In this document: positions 2 to 26,648 of the stretch, in pieces | How positions within the stretch are numbered: the stretch's first letter is position 1 | Layout of the letters: each line of letters begins with the position of its first letter | NCBI GenBank assembly: GCA_029001845.1 | Contig: JAREWP010000051.1 | Location: 1-33,801, forward strand | DNA length: 33,801 nt | Direction: 5' to 3' | Origin: Candidatus Magnetocorallium paracelense | GTDB lineage: Bacteria; Nitrospirota; Thermodesulfovibrionia; Thermodesulfovibrionales; Magnetobacteriaceae | Notes under the pieces: generated by a model | What the model was told of the DNA's origin: nothing | What the model saw: the letters and a program-made list of their open reading frames with translations, nothing else | Database searches by the model: none | Program-made: the position numbers and the translations under genes

Positions 2-3000
2 AAAATCGTACCCTCCCATTTAGCCGCTTTACTGGCTAACGATTCGGAAAAGCTTTTTTCCTCATGCGAACTTCTGATTCTGGGCGGAGAAGCTTCTCAA
101 CTCGAATGGATTAAAAGGCTTCAGACTCAAAATCCCCAATGCGGAATACTCAATCATTACGGTCCTTCTGAAGCAACCGTAGGCGTGCTCACTTATGAAG
201 CAGGCATACTCCCCGACAATACAGCAACTCTTCCCATTGGTCGTCCCCTGGCAAATACCCGAATTTATATTTTAGATGAGTACAACAACCCCACACCACC
301 GGGCATTCCCGGAGAACTCTGCATAGCAGGCCGCGGACTGGCAAGAGGTTACCTGAACCGGCCGGAACTTACGACGGAAAAGTTTATAGAACCCCCACTG
401 TTTGGCAAAGAAGAGAGAATTTATAAAACCGGAGATCTGGCCCGATGGCTTCCGGAGGGTAATATAGAATTCCTGGGACGTCTTGACCATCAGGTGAAAT
501 TACGCGGTTATCGAATTGAGTTGGGTGAAGTTGAAGCTGTTTTAAGACAACAGGAAGCAATTAAGGAAGCTGTGGTAGTGCTTTATAATAAGCAATCAGC
601 ATATAACAATTCCATGTTAATCGCCTATCTTACATTAACTATCGGTGGATCGGTTTTCGATACAGAGGATCTTCGCACCCGACTTAAAATCAGCTTGCCT
701 GAATATATGATTCCCGCTGTTTTCATGGTATTGGATAAATTACCCTTAACTCCCAACGGCAAGATCGACAAAAGAGCGCTTCCTGATCCCGATTTTTCCA
801 TTGGAACCGGCCAACAGCCTCCCCGTACGGAAATTGAACATCTATTGTGTACACTTTGGTCCCAAGTGCTGAGTAGTGAGATTACAGGTATAGAGAGTAA
901 TTTTTTTGAATCAGGCGGGCATTCCCTCTTGGCCACTCGATTGGTGTCACGAGTCCGTGAAGGCTTTGGCATTGAAATGCCTTTGCCCGTTATTTTTGAA
1001 AAGCCGGTTCTTATGGAACAGGCATTGTGGCTCGAACAACAACAGAGAGGTTCGGAACTGCCTCAAATTGAACCCTTGGTCGAAGGCGATCCTCTGGTCC
1101 TCTCTTTCGCGCAGCAACGCCTGTGGTTCCTGGCCCAACTGGAAGGAGAAAATGCGACCTATAATATGCCGGCGGTCCTCCATCTCTCCGGACAACTGAA
1201 CGCAACAGCATTACAACAAGCACTTAAGACTTTAGTGGAACGTCATGAAAGCCTGCGAATCTGCTTCCCCGTCGTCAATGGAGAGGCCACAGTCCGAATC
1301 AATGATGTTTATAATCCGTTACTCATTACCGATCTGAGCGAGATTATCGACTCGGAGCAACAAATCCGAATAAATGAATTAATAGAGAGTCATATTTTAA
1401 CGCCTTTCAATCTGAACAGCGGACCACTGTTGAGTTTACATCTTCTCAAATTAAGCGCAGATAAGCATGTATTGATATTCAATATGCACCATATTATCAG
1501 TGACGGCTGGTCATTGGGTGTTCTGATTCGTGAATGGAGGGAGTTATACAATTCATATGCTCAAAATCAGAAGCCCCAATTACCGGAACTGCCGATTCAA
1601 TACACCGATTATGCGGCCTGGCAGAGAAAGTGGCTGGAACAAGAGATTTTGACTCAGCAACTGACCTATTGGAAGGAGAAACTGAAGGATGTCCCTGAAT
1701 TGTTGGAGTTACCCTCGGATTTTCCCCGTCCCGCAGTGATGCGTTTTAAGGGAAGGCATCTGCAATTCATTATGGATCAGGAACTGATGCAGCGTGTTAA
1801 GCAAGTTGGCAGACAACAGAGTGCCACTCTTTTTATGACCCTCTTGGCTGCCTTTAATGTACTGTTGTATCGGTACAGCGGACAAACTGATCTGGTGGTG
1901 GGAAGTCCCATTGCCAATCGCACTCAACGCAGGACAGAGGATTTGATCGGCTTTTTTGTCAATACCCTTGTATTACGCACCCAGATCAATAGTGATCAAA
2001 CATTTCTCGAATTACTGAAAGAGGTCAGGCAAACATCCCTTGAGGCCTACACTCATCAGGATATTCCATTCGAGTATCTGGTGGAGCAGATAAATCCGAC
2101 ACGCAGTATGAGTCACTCCCCTTTGTTTCAGGTAATGTTTGTATTACAAAATGCGCCAAGTGAAGAGTTGGAACTTGGGGATTTAAAAATGACTCTTGTA
2201 AAGCCGGATAAGAAAACAGCTAAATTCGATCTCACCCTGACGGTTACCGAACAGGAGGGTAAACGGTTTATTTGCGAGTGGGAATATAACACCGATCTTT
2301 TTCGTGAAAGTACGATCGAGCGAATGACCGAACATTTCCAAGTACTGTTAAAGGGGATTATCGATAACCCGGAACGTTCCCTTTCCCAATTACCAATTCT
2401 TACTGAGTCAGAGATACAACAATTAACAACCTGGAACCAAACGGAGATCATTTATCCCGAAGAGCTGACCATAGTGGACTTATTCGAAACGCAAGTCGAA
2501 AAAACGCCTCAAAACATAGCAGTTGTATTTAAAGACCAACAACTAACCTATCTGGAACTAAACCAAAAAGCCAACCGGTTGACCAATTACCTGATAACCC
2601 TGAACCTTGAACCTTTGAACCCGGAACCCCTAATCGCTATTTGCATGGAACGTTCCATAGAGATGGTAATCGGTTTGTTGGGAATTTTGAAATCAGGATG
2701 TGCTTATGTTCCCCTTGATCCCGATTATCCGAAGGAGCGGTTAAAATTTATGCTGGAAGACTCTTCCGCAAAAATTTTATTAACCCAAAACCACTTATTA
2801 AAAAGATTGCCTGAAAACAACCTGGGGGCAGGTTTGAAACCTGCCCCTGCCGCCCTTTGTCTGGACGGTCATTGGGAACAAATCGCCTCTTGTTCTGAAA
2901 TAAATCCTCCAAAACAAAGTACACCTGATAATTTAGCTTATGTGATTTACACATCCGGTTCTACAGGCAAACCCAAAGGAACACTGATCACCCATAAAAG

Positions 3001-6000
3001 CGTCAGCAACTATTTAAATTGGGCTCTTTGTGAGTACGATTTGAATCAGGGGATCGGTGCACCGGTTCAATCCTCTATTGCATTTGACGCCACGATTACC
3101 AGCTTATATTTGCCCCTTCTTAGCGGTACGCAGGTTATTCTCATGCCTGAAAAAGAGGAGGTTGAGAGTCTTGCCGAGCTGTTAAAGGATTCCGATACTT
3201 TAAGCTTGATAAAAATCACCCCCTCCCATTTGGAAATATTGAACAGTCAACTGGAAGAAAACCAATATACAGAAGCAACGAAAGCCCTGATTATCGGCGG
3301 AGAAGCACTCACTGCAGGGCAAATCAAACCCTGGCTTACCCATGGGCCGCAGGTTCGACTGATTAACGAGTATGGTCCCACCGAATCGGTAGTAGGATGC
3401 GCTGTATATGACGCAAAGGGGCAAACCGGTTTATCCGGTAATATACCGATTGGCCGTCCCATAGCCAACACTCGAATTTACATATTAGACAAAAACCATA
3501 ACCCTCTACCAACCGGTATTCCGGGAGAACTGTGCATAGCAGGCGCCGGGTTGGCAAGAGGTTACCTGAACCGGCCGGAACTTACAGCAGAAAAATTTAT
3601 AGAAGTTCAATTGTTTGGAGAAAAACAGAGAATTTACAAAACCGGAGACCTGGTCCGACTGCTACCGGACGGCAATATGGAATACCTGGGACGCATGGAT
3701 CATCAAATCAAGATTCGGGGCTACCGGATTGAATTGGGTGAAATCGAAAATACCATAGTCCGGCATGAAGCGGTTCAGGAGGCTGTGGTTGTGCTTTATG
3801 ATCAGCAGTCAGCAACCAGCCGTCAGCAGTCAGCTTTAGGTGATGGATATTTGGCTGTTTACATTACTTTATCTGCCCACAACCTGCAAGATGGCGCACC
3901 GGTTTTTGACAGGGAGATTTTGCGTACCTGGTTAAAAGCCCGTTTACCTGAATATATGATGCCCGCCGGTTTTGTGGTGTTGGATAAATTCCCTTTAACG
4001 CCTAATGGAAAAATAGATAGAAAGGCGCTGCCTGAACCGAATTTATCCATTCGCACCGGACAACAACCGCCTCGCACCGAAAGTGAGCGCTTACTGTGCG
4101 CTCTTTGGTCTCAGGTTTTGGGGATTGAAGTGATCGGAATAGAGAGTAATTTTTTTGAATCAGGCGGGCATTCACTATTAGCCACCCGATTGGTTTCCGG
4201 AATTCGGGAAAGCTTTGGTATTGAAATGCCCTTACGTATGGTTTTTGAAAAACCTCTTCTTATGGAACAGGCGGAATGGCTGGAAAAAAAGCAACGAGAT
4301 TCCAAATTGCCTCAAATCGAACCATTGGCTGAAGGCGCCCCCCGGGAACTCTCTTTCGCGCAGCAAAGGTTGTGGTTTTTGGTCCAACTGGAAGGAGAGA
4401 GCGTATCCTATAATATACCTGCTTCCCTACGTATTACCGGAAAACTCAATGAATCGGCATTACAGCAGGCCTTCACAGCTCTGGTGAAACGTCACGAAAG
4501 TCTGCGAACCTCCTTCCCGGTGATCAATGGAGAAGCCACAGTGCGAGTCAATGATGTTTATAATCCATTGAAAATTACGGATATAAGCGATTTATCGGAA
4601 CCGGAACGGAAAAGCCGGATCGATGAATCGATCACTGAACATGCCCAAACACCCTTTGACCTGAGCACAGGCCCTTTGTTGAGTTTACACCTTCTGAAGT
4701 TTGGAGAAGAAGAGCATCTTTTACTCTTTAATATGCATCACATTATCGGCGACGGCTGGTCCATGGGCGTGCTGATTCGCGAATTGAATCATTTGTACAA
4801 TGATTACAATAAAAACCGTGAATTGCAATTGCCGAAATTGCCTGTTCAATACACCGATTACGCAACATGGCAGAGAAAGTGGCTGGAACAAGGGGTTTTA
4901 GCCCGTCAACTTGCCTATTGGATGGAGAAACTCCACGGCGCGCCCGAATTATTGGAATTGCCCTCTGATTACCGACGTCCTTCGATGATCAGTTATGAAG
5001 GAGACTCTCTGAAAAGCACCTTAAATCATGAACTGACATATGGAATTAAACAAATAAGCCGGCAAGAGGGGGCAACTGTTTTTATGACCCTATTGGCGGC
5101 CTTTCATGTCCTGCTCTATCGTTACAGCGGACAAACCGATTTGTTGACAGGCACTCCCATCGCCAATCGCACCCATAGCAGGACAGAGGATTTGATCGGT
5201 TTTTTTGTAAATACCCTTGTATTACGCACTCAAATCGACGGGAATCAAACATTTTCCCAATTATTGAAACAGGTAAGACAAACATCCCTTGAAGCGTACG
5301 CCAATCAGGATACCCCCTTTGAGTATCTTGTGGAAGAGATAAATCCGAGCCGCAGCATGAGTCGCTCCCCATTGTTCCAGGTGATGTTTGTACTGCAAAA
5401 CACACCGCAGGGGGATTTGAAACTTGACGGACTGAAGGTATCCCCAATAAAACCGGATAAAAGAACGGCTAAATTCGATCTGACCCTGACGGTTGAGGAA
5501 AAGGGCGAGATTTTTGTCTGCGACTGGGAATACAGCACCGATCTGTTTCGCAGGGAAACCATTACACGAATGACCAGGCATTTTCAACTTCTGTTAAAAA
5601 GAATTATAGAAAATCCCGAGCTTTCCCTCTCACGTTTACCATTGCTGACAGAATCTGAGAAACAACAATTAATAGCCTGGAATCAAAGAGAAACGGATTT
5701 CCCAAAAGACCGGACAATAGTGGATTTATTCGAGGCACAAGTCAAAAAAACGCCTAATAACATAGCAGTGGTCTATAAGGATCAACAACTGACCTATCTG
5801 GAACTGAACAAAAAAGCCAACCAACTCGCTCATTATCTGATAACCCGAAACCCTGAACCTCTGAACCCGGAACCCCTAATCGCTCTTTGCATGGAACGTT
5901 CCATAGAGATGATGATCGGATTGTTTGGCGTATTGAAAGCCGGAGCAGCCTATGTACCCATTGATCCTAACTATCCGGTGGAACGATTACAGATAATGCT

Positions 6001-9000
6001 GGTGGATTCTTCAGTGTCGATTCTGTTAACCCAATCCCATTTGCTGGAAAGGCTGCCGATAAACACCGTAGGGGCAGGTTTCAAACCTGCCCTCTGTGTG
6101 GACAACAAACGGGAACAGATCGCCTCATGTTCCGATGAAAATCCTCCCATACAAAGCACACCTGAAAGTCCGGCTTATGTAATCTATACATCCGGCAGCA
6201 CGGGGAAACCGAAAGGAGTCGTAATCCGCCAATCTTCAGTAGTCAATTATATCTATTCAAATATTAGCTTATCCGATCTGAGCGAAGAGGATATAGTTCT
6301 TCAATTCTCATCCATCTCTTTCGACGCCTCGGTGGAAGAAATTTTCCCCTGTTTATCTGTGGGAGGAAAACTGATATTAAGAACAGAAGAGATGATGAGC
6401 TCGACAGAACACTTTTTACAAACCTGTCAGGATTGGAAGATAACCCAATTGATTTTGCCCACTGCCTATTGGAATCAAATCATATCGGAGATGGCGGAGG
6501 TTATGAGCAAACCTTATGCTATAAAAAAGAGAAGTGTCGTCGGCAACTCACTATACGCCACTCAAAGCTATAAAAAAGGAGAAACCGTAATAACACTGGA
6601 TGGAAAAATATTGGATCGTCCTACGAGGATATCAGTGCAAATAGGAAAAAATCAGCACATTGATGACAGATTTTACGGGAGGTTTATTAACCACTCCTGT
6701 AATCCCAATACAACGGTTGAAGGCAGATCCATGGTGGCCATAAAAGATATAAAGTTTGGAGATGAAATCACATTCGATTATTGCGAAACAGAAGATAAAA
6801 TGCACAGCCCCTTTCTCTGTAATTGTTGCAATGAACCCATTGAAGGCAGGCTGAGTAAAAAAGAGCGGAGAAAGGTCGATACAATCGAGACGAACAACCT
6901 CTTTTTCTCACCCCATTTACGGCTTGTAAATATGGGGGGAGAGAAAACCACAGAGGACAAACTGAAGATATGGGAAGCCATAGGAGATTATCCCGGATTA
7001 TTAAACGGATACGGCCCCACGGAAGCAACAGTGGCCGTTACATTTTGGAAATATTATAAAGACTATGACAAAGAGAAGTTTAATGAAGTCCCCATAGGCC
7101 GTCCCATACCCAACATTAATATATATATTCTTGACAAGCACAATCAACCTCTTCCCATAGGAATATTCGGCGAACTTCATATTGGGGGGGCCGGACTTGC
7201 TAAGGGTTACCTCAATCACCCTGAATTGACCTCCGAGAAGTTTTTTGAAATCGAAATCTTTGGTAAAGTGCATCGACTTTACAAAACAGGCGACCTGGCC
7301 CGCTATCTTCCTGACGGTAATATTGAATACTTGGGACGTATGGATCATCAGGTCAAGATTCGGGGTTTTCGGGTAGAACTTGGAGAGATAGAAGCCACCC
7401 TGTGCCGACATGAATCGGTTAAAGAGGCAGTGGTCATACTTTATAATGAAAAGGATCATCCCCGTTTAGCGGCTTACCTGGTTCAAACATCTCCTGTTGA
7501 TGATATATCCGGAGAGCTGCGTATGTGGTTACAGGCGAGATTACCGGAATATATGGTTCCCTCAGCTTTCATTGCAATAGATAAAATACCCTTAACAACT
7601 GTAGGTAAGATCGACAGAAAAGCCCTTCCCAAACCCGACTTTGCAAGCCTTTCAATGCAATCGGATAAACAATCGAAACCACCACGCACGGAGACTGAAC
7701 AATTTTTATCGATTCTCTGGTCCGAGGTGCTGGGATTCGAAGTTACCAATATGGAGATCAACTTTTTCGAAGCAGGCGGACACTCCCTCTCCGCCACTCG
7801 ACTTGTTTCCCGTATTCGCGATAGTTTTGACATAGAAATGCCCTTGCAGATTATCTTCGAAAAGCCCGCTCTTTTGGAACAGGCCCAGTGGGTGGAAAAA
7901 CAACATCGCAGTTCCGAACTGCCGCAAATCGAGCCGGTGGCCGAAGAGATACCACCGGTTCTCTCATTCGCCCAGCAGCGGTTGTGGTTTCTGGCCCAAT
8001 TGGAAGGTCAAAGCGCAACCTATAATATGCCGGTTGCCTTACGACTGGAAGGCCGACTTAATGAAGAGGCGTTACAACAAGCGATGTTCGCTTTAGTAAA
8101 GCGCCATGAAAACCTTCGCTTCTCTTTTCCGGAAGTAAATGGAGAGGCCACGGTAAGGATCAGGGAAGTTTACAATCCCCTGACGATTACAGATTTGTGC
8201 AATCTGTCTGAGTCTGAACAGCAAATACAAGTGAATGACTTAATAAACATACATGCACAAACACCCTTTGATCTGACCTTAGACCCGCTGCTGAGATTAC
8301 ACCTCCTGAAACTTGGAGAAGAAGAGCAGATATTGCTCTTCAATATGCACCACATCATCAGTGACGGCTGGTCAATGAGCATACTGATTCGTGAGTGGAG
8401 AGAGTTTTACAATGCCTATGATCAGGATCTGGAACCAAACCTGCCGAAACTCCTGATTCAATACACCGATTACGCGGCATGGCAAAGAAACCGGCTAAAA
8501 CAGGGAGTACTGTCAAACCAACTCACCTATTGGAAGGAGAAACTTGAAGGTGCGCCTGAATTGCTTGAACTGCCCACAGATTATCCCCGTCCGGCGGTAA
8601 CGAACTATAAAGGAAAACAGCTGAAAAGCAGACTGGATCGGGAACTGACACATGGAATTAAACAGTTAAGCAAACAACAGGGAGTAACCGATTTTATGAC
8701 ACTCTTTGCGGCCTTTAATATCCTCTTGCATCGTTACAGCGGACAGACCGACCTTGTCGTGGGAAGCCCCATCGCCAATCGCACACATCAGCAAACAGAG
8801 GATTTAATCGGCTTTTTTGTAAATACACTTCTATTTCGCACTCAAATAGAAAGGGATCAGCAATTTACTCACCTGTTAAAACAGGTGAGACAAACATCTC
8901 TTGAGGCATATACTCATCAGGATATCCCCTTTGAGTACCTGGTTGACCAAATAAACCCGACACGCAGCACGAACCGCTCCCCTTTGTTTCAAGTGGGATT

Positions 9001-11197
9001 CGTACTGCAAAATACACCGGAAGAAGAACCGGATATTACAGGCTTAAAGATAACTTTCCTGAGATCGGAGCACAAAACATCCAAATTCGATTTGACCCTC
9101 AATATAGAAGAGCAAGACGGAATGTTTCTCTGCAATTGGGAATACAGCACCGATCTCTTCCGTCCTGAAACAATCAGCTCCATGACAGAACACTTCCAAC
9201 TCTTATTAAAAGGTATTCTAAACAACCCGGAACAATCGGTCTCAACAATACCACTATTGACTGAAACGGAAAAACAGCAGCTACTGAACTGGAATCAAAG
9301 AGAAACCGATTATCCCAAAAATCAAACTATTATCAGTTTATTCGAGGCGCAGGTTGAAAAAAACCCGAACAATAGAGCCGTCGTTTTTGAAGATCAACAA
9401 CTAAGCTACATGGAACTAAACAAAAAAGCCAACCAACTTGCACATTATCTGATAACCCTGAACCCTGAACCTATGAACCCCGAATCCGTTATAGCCATTT
9501 GCATCGAGCGCTCATTGGAGATGATCATCGCTTTGTTGGGAATATTAAAAGCAGGCTTCGCCTATATGCCCCTTGATCCCAATTATCCAAAAGAACGACT
9601 TCGATTCATGCTGGAAGATTCATCTGCACCCCTTCTCTTAACCCAAAGTGATCTACTGGAAAAATTACCGAAAAACCCTGTAGGGGCAGGTTTAAAACCT
9701 GCCCTCTGTGTGGACAACAAACGGGAACAGATCGCCTCATGTTCCGAAGAGAATCCCAGGGTAAAAATCAACCCGGATTCGCTGGCCTATATAATCTACA
9801 CCTCCGGCTCAACAGGCAAGCCTAAAGGTGTAATGATCGAGCATAATGGACTTACAAATCTGATTCACGCCCAAAGGGAAGCATTCAAAATTACCGAAAA
9901 AAGCCGATTACTCCAATTCGCCTCATTTAGTTTCGATGCCTCTGTATCGGAAATCGCTGTCACCTTAACCGGTGGAGCAGCTTTGCATTTAAGCAGTAAC
10001 GAAAAATTTCTGCCTGACCGGCAATTCATCGAATTACTGAACCGTCAATCCATCACCCACGTAACCCTGCCTCCCTCTTTTCTGAGTTTGTTACCCCGTG
10101 AAGAACTACCGGATTTAGAAACAATCGTTGTAGCAGGTGAGGCATGTTCCATGGAATTGAAGGAAAAATGGTCAAAGGGGCGTAGGTTTATCAATGCCTA
10201 TGGGCCCACTGAATCAACAGTCTGCGCCACTTTGATCGATTTGACAGATTACAAAGGTGACAGATATTCGCCTCCCATAGGCAAACCCATAAGGAACACC
10301 GAAATTCATATTCTCGATGCCAACAACAACCTTCTCCCCCCGGGCATACCGGGTGAATTGTCCATTGCAGGCAACTGCCTGGCAAGGGGATACCTCAACA
10401 GACCGGAACTGACTGCGGAAAAATTCATAGAAACCGAACTCTTCGGCAGAAGGACGCGAATTTATAAAACAGGCGATCTGGCAAGATGGCTCACTGACGG
10501 TAATCTCGAATTTCTTGGCCGCATGGATCATCAGATCAAACTGCGGGGATTCAGAATCGAGCCCGGTGAAGTGGAACACAGGCTGCGAGAACACCCGGGA
10601 ATCAATGAGGCCGTTGTGGTTTACAATCCGGATGATGAAAAACTCAATGCCTGTGTGATTTTGAAGGATCCTATTGCCCAAGACAGGGGTTCCCGACCTC
10701 CCGGGGCGGATACCGGATTGTTAAGAGATTATCTGTCAAACCTTTTACCTGATTACATGATACCGTCAGGTTTCATAATACTGGACGAATTACCTGTAAC
10801 ACCGGCCGGAAAGATCGACAGGCAGGCTCTTGCAACATTATCGATGGACAGTCGACAACCGGCAGACAGCTATATTGCGCCCCGAAATGACGTAGAGGAG
10901 ATAATAGCTGAAATCTGGTGCAAAGTAATAAAAACAGACACTATAGGCGTATACGACAATTTCTTTGAGCTGGGAGGGGATTCTCTACTCACAGTACAGG
11001 TAGTAAACAACATACAAAAAATCTTCAAAGTCCAGTTGGCAGTTAAAGACATATTCAAAAAACCGACAGTGGCGGGGATAGCAAAAACCTTAATAAAATT
11101 GGAACCACAAAAGGGATTTATAGAAACAATAGCCGCTTTGCATAAAGAGATAAGTCAGATGTCTGATGAAGAGGTTGAAACAGCACTTAGAAATTGA
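2..11197 (+). CDS. Non-ribosomal peptide synthetase, four modules, 5'-partial, with SET domain inside third A domain
   Basis: The frame is open from base 2, so the gene starts upstream; about 3731 residues are visible. Domain order by base: partial A (2-790; A5 NHYGPSE, YKTGDL, NGKID), T (Ser 923), C (about 1090-2400; HHIISDGWS), A (2470-4030), T (Ser 4172), C (4340-5650), A interrupted by SET (5710-7630), T (Ser 7784), C (7950-9250), A (9310-10840), T (Ser 10982), then a 25-residue acidic tail. All C domains carry HHxxxDG and there are no epimerisation domains, so LCL type is likely. Specificity codes read by alignment to GrsA: module 1 ???KIGHVGK (Asp-like), module 2 DATKIGEVGK (Asn-like), module 3 DAEINGGVAK (not recognised), module 4 DASTVAAVCK (a published Tyr code). 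There is no thioesterase or reductase, so release or further extension needs another protein not seen here. It assembles a peptide on phosphopantetheine arms in the cytoplasm. The family is certain; the substrates are inferred. Confidence 0.97.
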   Translation, partial: KIVPSHLAALLANDSEKLFSSCELLILGGEASQLEWIKRLQTQNPQCGILNHYGPSEATVGVLTYEAGILPDNTATLPIGRPLANTRIYILDEYNNPTPPGIPGELCIAGRGLARGYLNRPELTTEKFIEPPLFGKEERIYKTGDLARWLPEGNIEFLGRLDHQVKLRGYRIELGEVEAVLRQQEAIKEAVVVLYNKQSAYNNSMLIAYLTLTIGGSVFDTEDLRTRLKISLPEYMIPAVFMVLDKLPLTPNGKIDKRALPDPDFSIGTGQQPPRTEIEHLLCTLWSQVLSSEITGIESNFFESGGHSLLATRLVSRVREGFGIEMPLPVIFEKPVLMEQALWLEQQQRGSELPQIEPLVEGDPLVLSFAQQRLWFLAQLEGENATYNMPAVLHLSGQLNATALQQALKTLVERHESLRICFPVVNGEATVRINDVYNPLLITDLSEIIDSEQQIRINELIESHILTPFNLNSGPLLSLHLLKLSADKHVLIFNMHHIISDGWSLGVLIREWRELYNSYAQNQKPQLPELPIQYTDYAAWQRKWLEQEILTQQLTYWKEKLKDVPELLELPSDFPRPAVMRFKGRHLQFIMDQELMQRVKQVGRQQSATLFMTLLAAFNVLLYRYSGQTDLVVGSPIANRTQRRTEDLIGFFVNTLVLRTQINSDQTFLELLKEVRQTSLEAYTHQDIPFEYLVEQINPTRSMSHSPLFQVMFVLQNAPSEELELGDLKMTLVKPDKKTAKFDLTLTVTEQEGKRFICEWEYNTDLFRESTIERMTEHFQVLLKGIIDNPERSLSQLPILTESEIQQLTTWNQTEIIYPEELTIVDLFETQVEKTPQNIAVVFKDQQLTYLELNQKANRLTNYLITLNLEPLNPEPLIAICMERSIEMVIGLLGILKSGCAYVPLDPDYPKERLKFMLEDSSAKILLTQNHLLKRLPENNLGAGLKPAPAALCLDGHWEQIASCSEINPPKQSTPDNLAYVIYTSGSTGKPKGTLITHKSVSNYLNWALCEYDLNQGIGAPVQSSIAFDATITSLYLPLLSGTQVILMPEKEEVESLAELLKDSDTLSLIKITPSHLEILNSQLEENQYTEATKALIIGGEALTAGQIKPWLTHGPQVRLINEYGPTESVVGCAVYDAKGQTGLSGNIPIGRPIANTRIYILDKNHNPLPTGIPGELCIAGAGLARGYLNRPELTAEKFIEVQLFGEKQRIYKTGDLVRLLPDGNMEYLGRMDHQIKIRGYRIELGEIENTIVRHEAVQEAVVVLYDQQSATSRQQSALGDGYLAVYITLSAHNLQDGAPVFDREILRTWLKARLPEYMMPAGFVVLDKFPLTPNGKIDRKALPEPNLSIRTGQQPPRTESERLLCALWSQVLGIEVIGIESNFFESGGHSLLATRLVSGIRESFGIEMPLRMVFEKPLLMEQAEWLEKKQRDSKLPQIEPLAEGAPRELSFAQQRLWFLVQLEGESVSYNIPASLRITGKLNESALQQAFTALVKRHESLRTSFPVINGEATVRVNDVYNPLKITDISDLSEPERKSRIDESITEHAQTPFDLSTGPLLSLHLLKFGEEEHLLLFNMHHIIGDGWSMGVLIRELNHLYNDYNKNRELQLPKLPVQYTDYATWQRKWLEQGVLARQLAYWMEKLHGAPELLELPSDYRRPSMISYEGDSLKSTLNHELTYGIKQISRQEGATVFMTLLAAFHVLLYRYSGQTDLLTGTPIANRTHSRTEDLIGFFVNTLVLRTQIDGNQTFSQLLKQVRQTSLEAYANQDTPFEYLVEEINPSRSMSRSPLFQVMFVLQNTPQGDLKLDGLKVSPIKPDKRTAKFDLTLTVEEKGEIFVCDWEYSTDLFRRETITRMTRHFQLLLKRIIENPELSLSRLPLLTESEKQQLIAWNQRETDFPKDRTIVDLFEAQVKKTPNNIAVVYKDQQLTYLELNKKANQLAHYLITRNPEPLNPEPLIALCMERSIEMMIGLFGVLKAGAAYVPIDPNYPVERLQIMLVDSSVSILLTQSHLLERLPINTVGAGFKPALCVDNKREQIASCSDENPPIQSTPESPAYVIYTSGSTGKPKGVVIRQSSVVNYIYSNISLSDLSEEDIVLQFSSISFDASVEEIFPCLSVGGKLILRTEEMMSSTEHFLQTCQDWKITQLILPTAYWNQIISEMAEVMSKPYAIKKRSVVGNSLYATQSYKKGETVITLDGKILDRPTRISVQIGKNQHIDDRFYGRFINHSCNPNTTVEGRSMVAIKDIKFGDEITFDYCETEDKMHSPFLCNCCNEPIEGRLSKKERRKVDTIETNNLFFSPHLRLVNMGGEKTTEDKLKIWEAIGDYPGLLNGYGPTEATVAVTFWKYYKDYDKEKFNEVPIGRPIPNINIYILDKHNQPLPIGIFGELHIGGAGLAKGYLNHPELTSEKFFEIEIFGKVHRLYKTGDLARYLPDGNIEYLGRMDHQVKIRGFRVELGEIEATLCRHESVKEAVVILYNEKDHPRLAAYLVQTSPVDDISGELRMWLQARLPEYMVPSAFIAIDKIPLTTVGKIDRKALPKPDFASLSMQSDKQSKPPRTETEQFLSILWSEVLGFEVTNMEINFFEAGGHSLSATRLVSRIRDSFDIEMPLQIIFEKPALLEQAQWVEKQHRSSELPQIEPVAEEIPPVLSFAQQRLWFLAQLEGQSATYNMPVALRLEGRLNEEALQQAMFALVKRHENLRFSFPEVNGEATVRIREVYNPLTITDLCNLSESEQQIQVNDLINIHAQTPFDLTLDPLLRLHLLKLGEEEQILLFNMHHIISDGWSMSILIREWREFYNAYDQDLEPNLPKLLIQYTDYAAWQRNRLKQGVLSNQLTYWKEKLEGAPELLELPTDYPRPAVTNYKGKQLKSRLDRELTHGIKQLSKQQGVTDFMTLFAAFNILLHRYSGQTDLVVGSPIANRTHQQTEDLIGFFVNTLLFRTQIERDQQFTHLLKQVRQTSLEAYTHQDIPFEYLVDQINPTRSTNRSPLFQVGFVLQNTPEEEPDITGLKITFLRSEHKTSKFDLTLNIEEQDGMFLCNWEYSTDLFRPETISSMTEHFQLLLKGILNNPEQSVSTIPLLTETEKQQLLNWNQRETDYPKNQTIISLFEAQVEKNPNNRAVVFEDQQLSYMELNKKANQLAHYLITLNPEPMNPESVIAICIERSLEMIIALLGILKAGFAYMPLDPNYPKERLRFMLEDSSAPLLLTQSDLLEKLPKNPVGAGLKPALCVDNKREQIASCSEENPRVKINPDSLAYIIYTSGSTGKPKGVMIEHNGLTNLIHAQREAFKITEKSRLLQFASFSFDASVSEIAVTLTGGAALHLSSNEKFLPDRQFIELLNRQSITHVTLPPSFLSLLPREELPDLETIVVAGEACSMELKEKWSKGRRFINAYGPTESTVCATLIDLTDYKGDRYSPPIGKPIRNTEIHILDANNNLLPPGIPGELSIAGNCLARGYLNRPELTAEKFIETELFGRRTRIYKTGDLARWLTDGNLEFLGRMDHQIKLRGFRIEPGEVEHRLREHPGINEAVVVYNPDDEKLNACVILKDPIAQDRGSRPPGADTGLLRDYLSNLLPDYMIPSGFIILDELPVTPAGKIDRQALATLSMDSRQPADSYIAPRNDVEEIIAEIWCKVIKTDTIGVYDNFFELGGDSLLTVQVVNNIQKIFKVQLAVKDIFKKPTVAGIAKTLIKLEPQKGFIETIAALHKEISQMSDEEVETALRN
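2597..2630 (+). repeat. TGAACC-type minisatellite inside A domains
   Basis: Tandem variants of TGAACC(T/C) encode the segment NLEPLNPEPL between motifs A1 and A2. Equivalent tracts lie at about 5843-5876 and 9455-9486 in A domains 3 and 4. Other A domains usually have a plain short loop here. The three copies are similar but not identical. Confidence 0.6.
2825..2847. repeat. Intragenic palindrome in A domain 2
   Basis: A perfect inverted repeat, GGGGCAGGTTT / AAACCTGCCCC with a one-base centre, lies inside the NRPS reading frame between motifs A2 and A3. It is read as part of GAGLKPAPA, a segment absent from ordinary A-domain consensus at this linker. Similar palindromes occur at the equivalent place in A domains 3 and 4. 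Confidence 0.9.
3803..3834 (+). repeat. Short direct repeat in A domain 2 C-terminal subdomain
   Basis: The 11-mer CAGCAGTCAGC occurs at 3803-3813 and 3824-3834, encoding a QQSATSRQQSA loop between motifs A8 and A10. The low-complexity loop is not typical of A domains and looks like an in-frame repeat insertion. Confidence 0.6.
6072..6092. repeat. Intragenic palindrome in A domain 3
   Basis: A 10-bp inverted repeat, GGGCAGGTTT / AAACCTGCCC with a one-base centre, is read in frame as GAGFKPAL, in the linker before motif A3. The downstream sequence up to about 6133 is nearly identical to that after the A domain 4 copy, suggesting gene conversion between modules. Confidence 0.9.
6503..6895 (+). 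other. SET methyltransferase domain inserted in NRPS adenylation domain 3
   Basis: About 131 in-frame codons interrupt the A domain between the LPTAYW helix (before 6503) and the strand LRLVNMGGEK (from about 6914), that is between core motifs A4 and A5. Flanking A motifs are intact (YTSGSTGKPKG, FDASVEE, NGYGPTE, YKTGDL). The insert has SET hallmarks in order: a G-N-S-L-Y-A-T segment like the N-terminal GxGxFA motif, RFINHSCNPNT (NHSC at 6689-6700), GDEITFDY with the presumed catalytic Tyr at 6779-6781, and a Cys cluster FLCNCC resembling post-SET. The third canonical post-SET Cys is replaced (CNEPIEG). The insert begins exactly at an ATG followed by SKPYAIKK, as if a free-standing SET gene had been captured. 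SET proteins transfer methyl from SAM to amines, usually lysine. The target here is unknown. Confidence 0.9.
9684..9704. repeat. Intragenic palindrome in A domain 4
   Basis: GGGCAGGTTT / AAACCTGCCC with a one-base centre, preceded by GTAG, is read as GAGLKPAL in the A2-A3 linker. It is the third member of the in-frame palindrome set in this gene and shares its following bases with the A domain 3 copy. Confidence 0.9.
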
Positions 11198-24722: not shown

Positions 24723-26648
24723 CTATACGCCAACAAACAACTGTTCTGTGTTTAAAAGCATTTTTATGGAGCCGTTCATCTTAGCCATTGCCAGGATAAA
24801 TCCCATATTTAAATCACTCAACTGATAAGAAGAAACGTCATCAATATGTTCAGCCTTAATATCTACAACATCTGAAACAGAATCTACTACCATTCCTAAC
24901 TGAGCGATTCCTGTATCACGAAGTACCTCAAGTACTATAATGCGTGCTTTGTCATCATTGTCGCGTTTATGAATACCGAGCTTGGTCCTAAGATCTATAA
25001 CAGGAAATACTTTGCCCCTGAGGTTCAGTAAGCCCATTATAAACTCAGGTGTGTGTGGCATCTGTCTAATGGGCTTCATGCCTATGATCTCTTTAACAAA
25101 GAGTATGTCGATACCATATTCCTGTGTATCCAGCCCAAAGATGAGATACTTGCCTTCTTTGTTAAGCATGGATTTGGAAAGGACTCCCGTAGACTGTCTT
25201 CGAACGATTTGAGATACGACTTCTTTCATGCTTTTTAGCGTTGATTTTTTACGTATAGCTCCTGAACCTTTGTAGGCCGCATCGGCGAATCTTGTATCTA
25301 CGAATCTGTCAATGTCTATAAGAGAACCTACTCCTATCTCATTGACCATATATTGTTGTATTCTTTCAAGGTCTTCCTTAACAGGATAAAGGTCGTCTGT
25401 TTTAATCCCCTGAGCTTCTTTTAAAACATTTTTAAGCACCGGTACTTTCAGGCCTACGGCTTTATTGGGGTCGAGAAAAGAGACACCTATCTCAGCAGCT
25501 GTTTCCGGTTTTTCCGAAATGAATTTTCCTGCTTCGATAAGCATGTTTACAAATTCCTGGATAGCATCCTCGTATTGCTCTATAACCTCGTCACGCATCG
25601 TTACGACACAACAGGGGTGGTTTTCCCATAATTCTCCTGACAGAAACAACATATCAGCGATCCCTTCGGCTATTGCTTTTGTACCAAGCGGCTCTGCAAC
25701 GAGAAAGCCCGCTACTTCACTGTTGGCTGCTAAAAACTCCGGCATTTTTACAGGCGGGACAACCTCGAACTGTGTATCAAAGTCACCTCTGCCAAAAAAA
25801 CCGGGAGTCAATCCAATCTCACGAAGAAACATATGGGACAGCATATGATGTATAGACATTTCATGGGGAATATAGAATGTCTTGCCTTTAAAAAATGATT
25901 TAACTTCCTCTTTGTGGCCGTCTACACTCTTACGGACACTGATACTGCCGTTTTTATGAGCGAATAATACAAGCTTGATTGGCGTTTTGTAATTAAAAAG
26001 GTCCATTGCAATAGGGGCGAGTACAAAAGCACCTTCAACCTTTCCCTTTTCAAGAGCACTCTGTACCGAATTCCAACTTGGCATACAGGTCGTTTCAAGC
26101 TCAAAGTGTTGAGGGGTCAGTTTGCCGGTAGCTATTAATTCTTTTAATACGCCCAGAGTCAGGTGATCGGTTATTTGAATATGGGCGATATTTAACAGCA
26201 GTTTACCGCTTGAGCCCAAACGAGGTATGCCTACAGAAGGGACGCTGTCCGGCCCTGCCTCTGTTTGAGTAAGTGTCTCATCTATAAGTTCCTTTAGTTC
26301 GACAGGACTGAAGGGTTTTGTAATAAAATTGCTGACACCTGCTTCAACGGCGGCAGCTGCCTGCTTTTTTTCACCTCTTGCCGTTGCCATGATAAAAGGT
26401 ATTTCCTTGGATTCTTCATTGGCCCGCACCTGGCAAAGAAGTTCATATCCGTCTTTGTTAGGCATATTCCAGTCACTGATTATTAACTCTATGCCTTCTT
26501 CTTGTTGCAGTTTATCTAATGCGTCTTGTCCGTCTTCTGCGGTGATAACATTATTAAACCCAAGCTCGCCCAATACTTTGACCTGCATTTTTCTTGCGAC
26601 CTTGGAATCTTCGACAAGCAGTATTTTTATATTTGTATCAATTGACAT
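24723..26648 (-). CDS. Receiver - NMT1/nitrate-type substrate-binding domain - CheW fusion protein
   Basis: 641 residues, with no signal peptide. Residues 1-125 are a receiver: D14, phospho-acceptor D59 in LIISDWNMP, T89, K111. Residues about 150-455 resemble cytoplasmic-located CmpA/NrtA/NMT1-type substrate-binding folds (LNIAHIQITDHLTLGVLKEL, ALEKGKVEGAFVLAPIAMDLF, YIPHEMSIHHMLSHMFL, GFLVAEPLGTKAI, HPCCVVTM). Residues about 500-641 are CheW: YLIFGLDTQEYGIDILFVKEI, LLNLRGKVFPVIDLR, MVVDSVSDVVDI. This combination would link ligand sensing and phosphorylation to a chemoreceptor-CheA array. The ATG follows a strong GGAGGAGGG. No CheA, MCP or CheR is in the window. Domain calls are firm for the ends and good for the middle. 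Confidence 0.88.
   Translation of the reverse strand: MSIDTNIKILLVEDSKVARKMQVKVLGELGFNNVITAEDGQDALDKLQQEEGIELIISDWNMPNKDGYELLCQVRANEESKEIPFIMATARGEKKQAAAAVEAGVSNFITKPFSPVELKELIDETLTQTEAGPDSVPSVGIPRLGSSGKLLLNIAHIQITDHLTLGVLKELIATGKLTPQHFELETTCMPSWNSVQSALEKGKVEGAFVLAPIAMDLFNYKTPIKLVLFAHKNGSISVRKSVDGHKEEVKSFFKGKTFYIPHEMSIHHMLSHMFLREIGLTPGFFGRGDFDTQFEVVPPVKMPEFLAANSEVAGFLVAEPLGTKAIAEGIADMLFLSGELWENHPCCVVTMRDEVIEQYEDAIQEFVNMLIEAGKFISEKPETAAEIGVSFLDPNKAVGLKVPVLKNVLKEAQGIKTDDLYPVKEDLERIQQYMVNEIGVGSLIDIDRFVDTRFADAAYKGSGAIRKKSTLKSMKEVVSQIVRRQSTGVLSKSMLNKEGKYLIFGLDTQEYGIDILFVKEIIGMKPIRQMPHTPEFIMGLLNLRGKVFPVIDLRTKLGIHKRDNDDKARIIVLEVLRDTGIAQLGMVVDSVSDVVDIKAEHIDDVSSYQLSDLNMGFILAMAKMNGSIKMLLNTEQLFVGV

Follow-up and report, generated by a model that had tools for sequence, protein, structure and literature searches.

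A SET domain between motifs A4 and A5 of a nonribosomal peptide synthetase adenylation domain may methylate the domain's own, probably lysine, substrate

We identified a SET domain lying in frame within the third adenylation (A) domain, A3, of a nonribosomal peptide synthetase (NRPS), between the core motifs A4 and A5. The window (the whole stretch of DNA analysed, 33,801 nucleotides, C81:1-33801) belongs to the 6.0-Mb genome of an uncultured bacterium, 99.6% complete in 103 contigs. The NRPS reading frame occupies positions 2-11197 of its + strand, encodes at least 3731 residues and is open at its 5' side, where the contig ends. As an explanation of this architecture, we put at roughly even chances that A3[SET], as an interrupted A domain, is bifunctional and adds methyl to the side chain of its own substrate, most likely to the epsilon-amine of lysine. 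The fuller statement, that this would be the first NRPS A domain with an embedded SET domain, of the histone-methyltransferase type, methylating the epsilon-amine of its own lysine substrate, at a site (A4-A5) unused in the interrupted A domains described, is advanced a shade more tentatively, at slightly below an even chance.

The insert comprises 132 codons (6503-6898, + strand; MSKPYAIKK...KVDTIETNN), its boundaries being set by A-domain alignment. Searched as a 136-aa query, it matches the SET profile PF00856 with 43.5 bits (E 4.8e-11; cut-off 22.4), and the profile also scores against the whole NRPS protein (E 2.7e-8). A reading of the DNA made from its letters alone had proposed a SET-type methyltransferase within an NRPS A domain at 6503-6895, about 131 codons; the profile match bears out the assignment and the location stands, while the exact end moves, within 3 bases, to 6898. 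The motifs on which that proposal was founded are intact: INHSCNPN, the SAM-binding pseudoknot motif of SET domains (6686-6709, + strand), and GDEITFDY, which includes the conserved tyrosine equivalent to Tyr124 of the methyltransferase BurB (6758-6781, + strand). They are followed by a variant post-SET cysteine cluster, FLCNCC (6812-6829, + strand), which retains CxC and lacks the third cysteine of the usual CxCxxxxC, as does the phage SET protein L057. No NCBIfam family was found for the insert, PHROGs gave no significant match, and a profile search of the 6.0-Mb genome found no second SET domain beside it.

Structure prediction led to the same assignment. The model of the insert, built with 16 viral SET relatives in the alignment, has a mean pLDDT of 60.9, with values of 64-93 per ten-residue block in the core (about residues 21-110) and a disordered C-terminal linker. 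Its top PDB match in Foldseek is the BurB-SMM-SAM complex (E 2.7e-6) and in VIA-align BurB-Met (Z 12.0 over 101 residues), so that the predicted core adopts a SET fold, as the initial proposal required. Lysine methyltransferases (EZH2, SETD8 and others) score Z of about 10-11 in VIA-align, within about 1 of BurB; the SET fold is secure, whereas BurB does not decisively outrank the lysine methyltransferases. A PDB search with the sequence of the insert likewise places BurB at the top (E 7.7e-9), followed by the lysine methyltransferases ASH1L and MLL. Joint prediction of the A domain with the insert gave a poor A core, owing to the shallow alignment, and the SET-only model was used for all claims about the fold. 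The insert is thereby confirmed, by sequence and predicted fold, as a genuine SET domain, and we infer that it would bind SAM and transfer methyl groups.

By sequence, the insert comes closest, among the relatives found, to free-standing SET proteins on viral contigs (L055-L057, IMG/VR), with 44% identity over about 95 residues. A PTRxSIQxG stretch is common to the insert and the viral group L055-L059, and L057 also shares its unusual post-SET spacing; unlike the insert, the viral proteins are encoded by small stand-alone genes without an assigned function and without an A domain. In a tree of 59 SET domains the insert clusters with a SET from a Streptomyces plasmid and three of viral origin, and it falls into one broad group with a BurB-like protein (L033) of a PKS-type cluster in Eleftheria terrae, the joins around the insert having long branches and moderate support. 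By eye, the small SET gene on the phage-like contig L055 (2932-3306) stands beside peptide-deformylase-like and IMP-dehydrogenase-like open reading frames, the latter apparently split by intein-like and endonuclease-like sequence.

The interrupted domain A3 extends over approximately 5687-7642 (+ strand; PF00501, PF13193 and motifs). A-domain alignments place the insert between the helix that follows code position 278 and the strand that carries positions 299-301, in GrsA terms between motifs A4 and A5. The A4-motif region with code positions 235, 236 and 239 (D, A, E) and 278 (I) lies 5' of the insert (6305-6472, + strand), and the strand with 299 and 301 (N, G), together with motif A5 and positions 322, 330 and 331 (G, V, A), lies 3' of it (6920-7033, + strand). 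The loop concerned is naturally variable, its length differing by about a dozen residues among the other A domains aligned, and the insert stretches the distance between motifs A4 and A5 to about 234 residues, compared with about 89-101 in those domains. Around it the core motifs YTSGSTGKPKG, FDASVEE, NGYGPTE, YKTGD, IRGFRVELGEIE and GKIDRK are intact. The SET domain is thus an auxiliary domain held in frame inside a single A domain with all its core motifs, upholding the earlier description of an A domain that is otherwise complete and split between A4 and A5.

The NRPS frame remains open through both junctions of the insert, at which no direct repeats or mobile-element scar were found. At 0.396, the GC content of the insert is near the lower limit of the range of the ORF (mean 0.450), nothing stands out in its GC3, and in synonymous codon usage it is more typical of the gene than 99% of the other windows of the ORF. 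The intact frame and motifs together with this codon usage indicate that the insert is neither decayed nor very recent, and the suggestion that a free-standing SET gene had been captured at its Met codon was not borne out as a recent event, the codon usage being host-like.

Searches for the same architecture returned no second example. No SET domain within an NRPS was found in the other 175 of the 176 genomes of the host's order, where SETs occur only free-standing, encoded by open frames about 120-250 aa long, in a 296-genome sample of the phylum, or in 60 relatives and elsewhere in the host's own genome. Plasmids gave none among 12 SET matches, which were separate small SET genes wherever the annotation was read; the phage search gave no match; viral contigs gave none among 37 SET loci, those translated being free-standing; and one genome per species, scanned with a limited pattern, gave a single match, which was free-standing. 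The architecture searches cover the host order, the phylum sample, plasmids, phages and viral contigs and, within the limits of the pattern used, one genome per species, and among these collections the arrangement was seen once, in the host.

A single occurrence provides no conservation argument for the fusion of SET and A domains, and it is one of the points in favour of a tolerated passenger, that is, a captured SET gene that a permissive loop accommodates and that is either inactive or without action on the peptide. The natural length variation of the loop, the free-standing viral genes as nearest sequences and the differences at several of the SAM contacts of BurB point the same way. The intact frame, SET motifs and A domain and the gene-typical codon usage speak against such a passenger, which we regard as unlikely while still granting it some weight.

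The alignment-based reading of the specificity code across the insert gives DAEINGGVAK, the same code as was derived before from the sequence alone, with the proposal that Glu at position 239 could favour a basic substrate. Published lysine codes are for the most part in line with a pocket of the lysine type: in Pls-A the glutamate at the third code position forms a salt bridge with the side-chain amine of lysine, and glutamate is common there among Lys A domains, 26 of which are listed, including DAEDIGSVVK (ApnA A2) and DTEDIGSVVK (AptA2 A2) (PMC12195549). Nine of the ten positions of the A3 code hold residues that occur in these 26 codes, Ile at position 4 being the one never seen; the best match, DAEDNGTVSK, is identical at 7/10 positions, and Glu at 3, Gly at 6 and Val at 8 are as in most published Lys domains. 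With ApnA A2, AptA2 A2, Pls-A and BacB A1, A3 has Asp235, Glu239, Gly301 and the code framework in common, and it differs from them in Ile at 278 (where the listed Lys domains have D, S, N, E or P), in Gly at 322 and in the SET insert. The pocket of A3 thus appears lysine-like with polarity lost at 278, and a less polar pocket of this kind may be compatible with a methylated amine.

A tree of whole A domains did not resolve the placement of A3, presumably through subdomain mixing, and the specificity tree was therefore built from the subdomain between motifs A3 and A5, with the insert left out. The nearest relatives in this subdomain (49-51%) are five uninterrupted NRPS domains on cyanobacterial plasmids, of which four have the codes DAEDIGSVVK (twice), DAEDIGSIVK and DTEDIGSIVK. 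The fork uniting A3 with these relatives of lysine code has support of 94/81 and also contains other codes. As judged from code and relatives, A3 probably selects lysine as the third amino acid of the NRPS.

Characterised SET enzymes mostly methylate lysine epsilon-amines, and with a lysine-type A domain joined to a SET domain the simplest mechanism would be side-chain N-methylation of the domain's own lysine. The A part would select and activate an alpha-amino acid that is cationic, most probably lysine, before loading it onto the carrier domain downstream; the SET part, which protrudes from the loop that joins code positions 278 and 299, would methylate the side chain of the same building block once or more with SAM as donor, most likely on the lysine epsilon-amine. 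Methylation could take place on the free amino acid, as in the action of BurB on methionine, or after loading, as is reported of class I methyltransferase domains within A domains, and the product would be an N6-methylated lysine at that position of the peptide. Activity, substrate, timing and product of A3[SET] are all inferred here from a combination of results: the identification of the SET domain by HMM and predicted fold with its key motifs intact, the intact A motifs, the lysine-type code and subdomain relatives of A3, and the gene-typical codon usage. Furthermore, BurB demonstrates that a SET domain is able to take a free amino acid (PMC12542666). Against methylation of the domain's own lysine are the methionine sulfur targeted by BurB, the nearest solved relative; Ile at code position 4, in none of the 26 Lys domains, and the mixed-code fork; and the unconserved BurB SAM contacts Arg133 and His138 with the incomplete post-SET cysteine cluster.

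As BurB is the nearest solved relative of the insert, S-methylmethionine has to be considered as a product, and it is the main chemical rival to methyl-lysine. BurB (PDB 9l4t, 9l4v) is a free-standing SET protein that S-methylates free methionine for the NRPS-PKS line of the malleicyprol pathway (PMC7496086, PMC12542666); Met occupies its substrate pocket, and proximity together with desolvation is the proposed basis of methyl transfer (PMC12542666). Both it and the insert are small SET domains in a thiotemplate pathway, with the equivalents of His93 and Tyr124 and the TED motif that follows the catalytic tyrosine kept in the insert, which differs from BurB in being fused within an A domain. 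Among the side-chain SAM contacts of BurB, the insert keeps His93 and lacks His72, Arg133 and His138, and the contacts of BurB to methionine are main-chain ones, so that a methionine pocket is not readable from sequence. The SET part might S-methylate methionine, with A3 activating S-methylmethionine and Glu239 holding the sulfonium cation. The top rank of BurB by sequence, Foldseek and VIA-align, the common broad tree group with the BurB-like protein of the Eleftheria PKS cluster and the TED motif favour this, as does BurA, an A domain preferring sulfonium substrates (PMC7496086). We nevertheless consider it quite unlikely: the Z-scores of lysine methyltransferases come within about 1 of that of BurB, the pocket relatives of A3 have lysine codes, Asp235 is present in A3 and absent from BurA, and the nearest sequences are viral SETs without assigned function, not BurB.

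Methylation of a protein, either a lysine of the synthetase itself or another protein, as a form of regulation, would be the classical SET activity, and many such enzymes are among the fold matches; this appears rather improbable, however, being without an evident target, and the location in a substrate-selecting domain with a lysine-type pocket better fits modification of the substrate. An assembly or binning chimera is very improbable: the assembly is a draft in 103 contigs and cuts the NRPS itself at a contig end, but two in-frame junctions falling precisely on the two ends of one loop would be required, no second SET gene was found in the genome, and the codon usage of the insert, which is the gene's own, makes such an origin unlikely.

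The proposed methylation by A3 of its own lysine can be compared with the chemistry of interrupted A domains that carry class I methyltransferase (M) domains, such as TioN, TioS, KtzH, MarQ and McyA, in which the amino acid is activated and then methylated after its transfer to the T domain (PMC11355689). Insertion at a8-a9, and sometimes at a2-a3, is given as typical, not as required, and the inserts named are methyltransferase, oxidase, monooxygenase and reductase domains, SET going unmentioned (PMC11355689, PMC8949500). A3 resembles the M-interrupted domains in holding a putative methyltransferase within one A domain with complete core motifs and in having the building block of its own module as the expected target; it departs from them in that the insert is a class V SET domain of about 132 aa and lies between A4 and A5, a site that is neither a8-a9 nor a2-a3. 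Since the reviews give only those two sites, the A4-A5 site and the SET class look new, and no earlier report of a SET domain in combination with an NRPS A domain emerged from a literature search. The sequence-only reading knew of no SET domain used in this way, which stands for the site and the class; a natural-product precedent for SET does exist in BurB, presented earlier as an unusual SET methyltransferase in secondary metabolism (PMC7496086). With BurB known, what is new is the joining of the two domains, the place where they are joined and, probably, the use of lysine as substrate.

In nature and in engineered systems alike, interrupted A domains serve to make methylated peptides. If our reading of A3[SET] is right, these domains would gain a second class of methyltransferase at a third site, with a compact module only about 130 aa long, and side-chain amine methylation would probably join their repertoire; the loop would offer a new permissive position for engineering insertions, and a building block on an assembly line would be added to proteins and free methionine as targets of SET chemistry. 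As a two-domain protein, A3[SET] is open to direct testing.

The NRPS has the domain order (A1)-T-C-A2-T-C-A3[SET]-T-C-A4-T, and the Pfam matches in the frame amount to three condensation domains, four each of the AMP-binding and carrier types, and one SET domain; a Pfam domain scan of the fragment at 2-11197 found no thioesterase. Genome-wide there are 24 condensation domains. Within the SET-bearing module the condensation domain lies at 4349-5671 (+ strand; PF00668, E 9.8e-128) and the carrier core FFEAGGHSL, with the phosphopantetheine serine, at 7763-7789 (+ strand; PF00550). The neighbouring domains A2 (2450-4045) and A4 (9299-10843), both on the + strand, with ends approximate from A-domain alignment, are uninterrupted; their codes DATKIGEVGK and DASTVAAVCK are taken from code tables to be Asn-like and aromatic-like, respectively.

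The start of the NRPS, consisting of a condensation domain plus the N-terminal half of A1, is probably on contig C6, where the candidate 5' part (L043) lies at 3-2054 on the - strand. The 5' end of the window has no sequence overlap with C6, the terminal A domain of which ends about 45 codons ahead of the start of A1 in the window; this short gap and a palindromic element found in frame on both sides support the assignment. The element, GTAGGGGCAGGTTTNAAACCTGCCCT, is REP-like and occurs in frame at 2822-2850, 6068-6093 and 9680-9705, where it encodes (V/L)GAG(L/F)KPA in one and the same loop, before motif A3, of domains A2, A3 and A4. A similar palindromic stretch is present in the A domain ending contig C6 (the left end of L043), and none was found in the other NRPS regions retrieved; repeat elements within NRPS reading frames are unusual.

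Elsewhere in the window, at 24723-26648 (- strand), three domains are joined in an unusual way: a response-regulator receiver, an NMT1-like solute-binding domain and a CheW domain. On contig C96, at about 117037-117243, a single 330-aa frame contains two magnetochrome motifs (PF18509) above the cut-off, which suggests that the host organism is magnetotactic.
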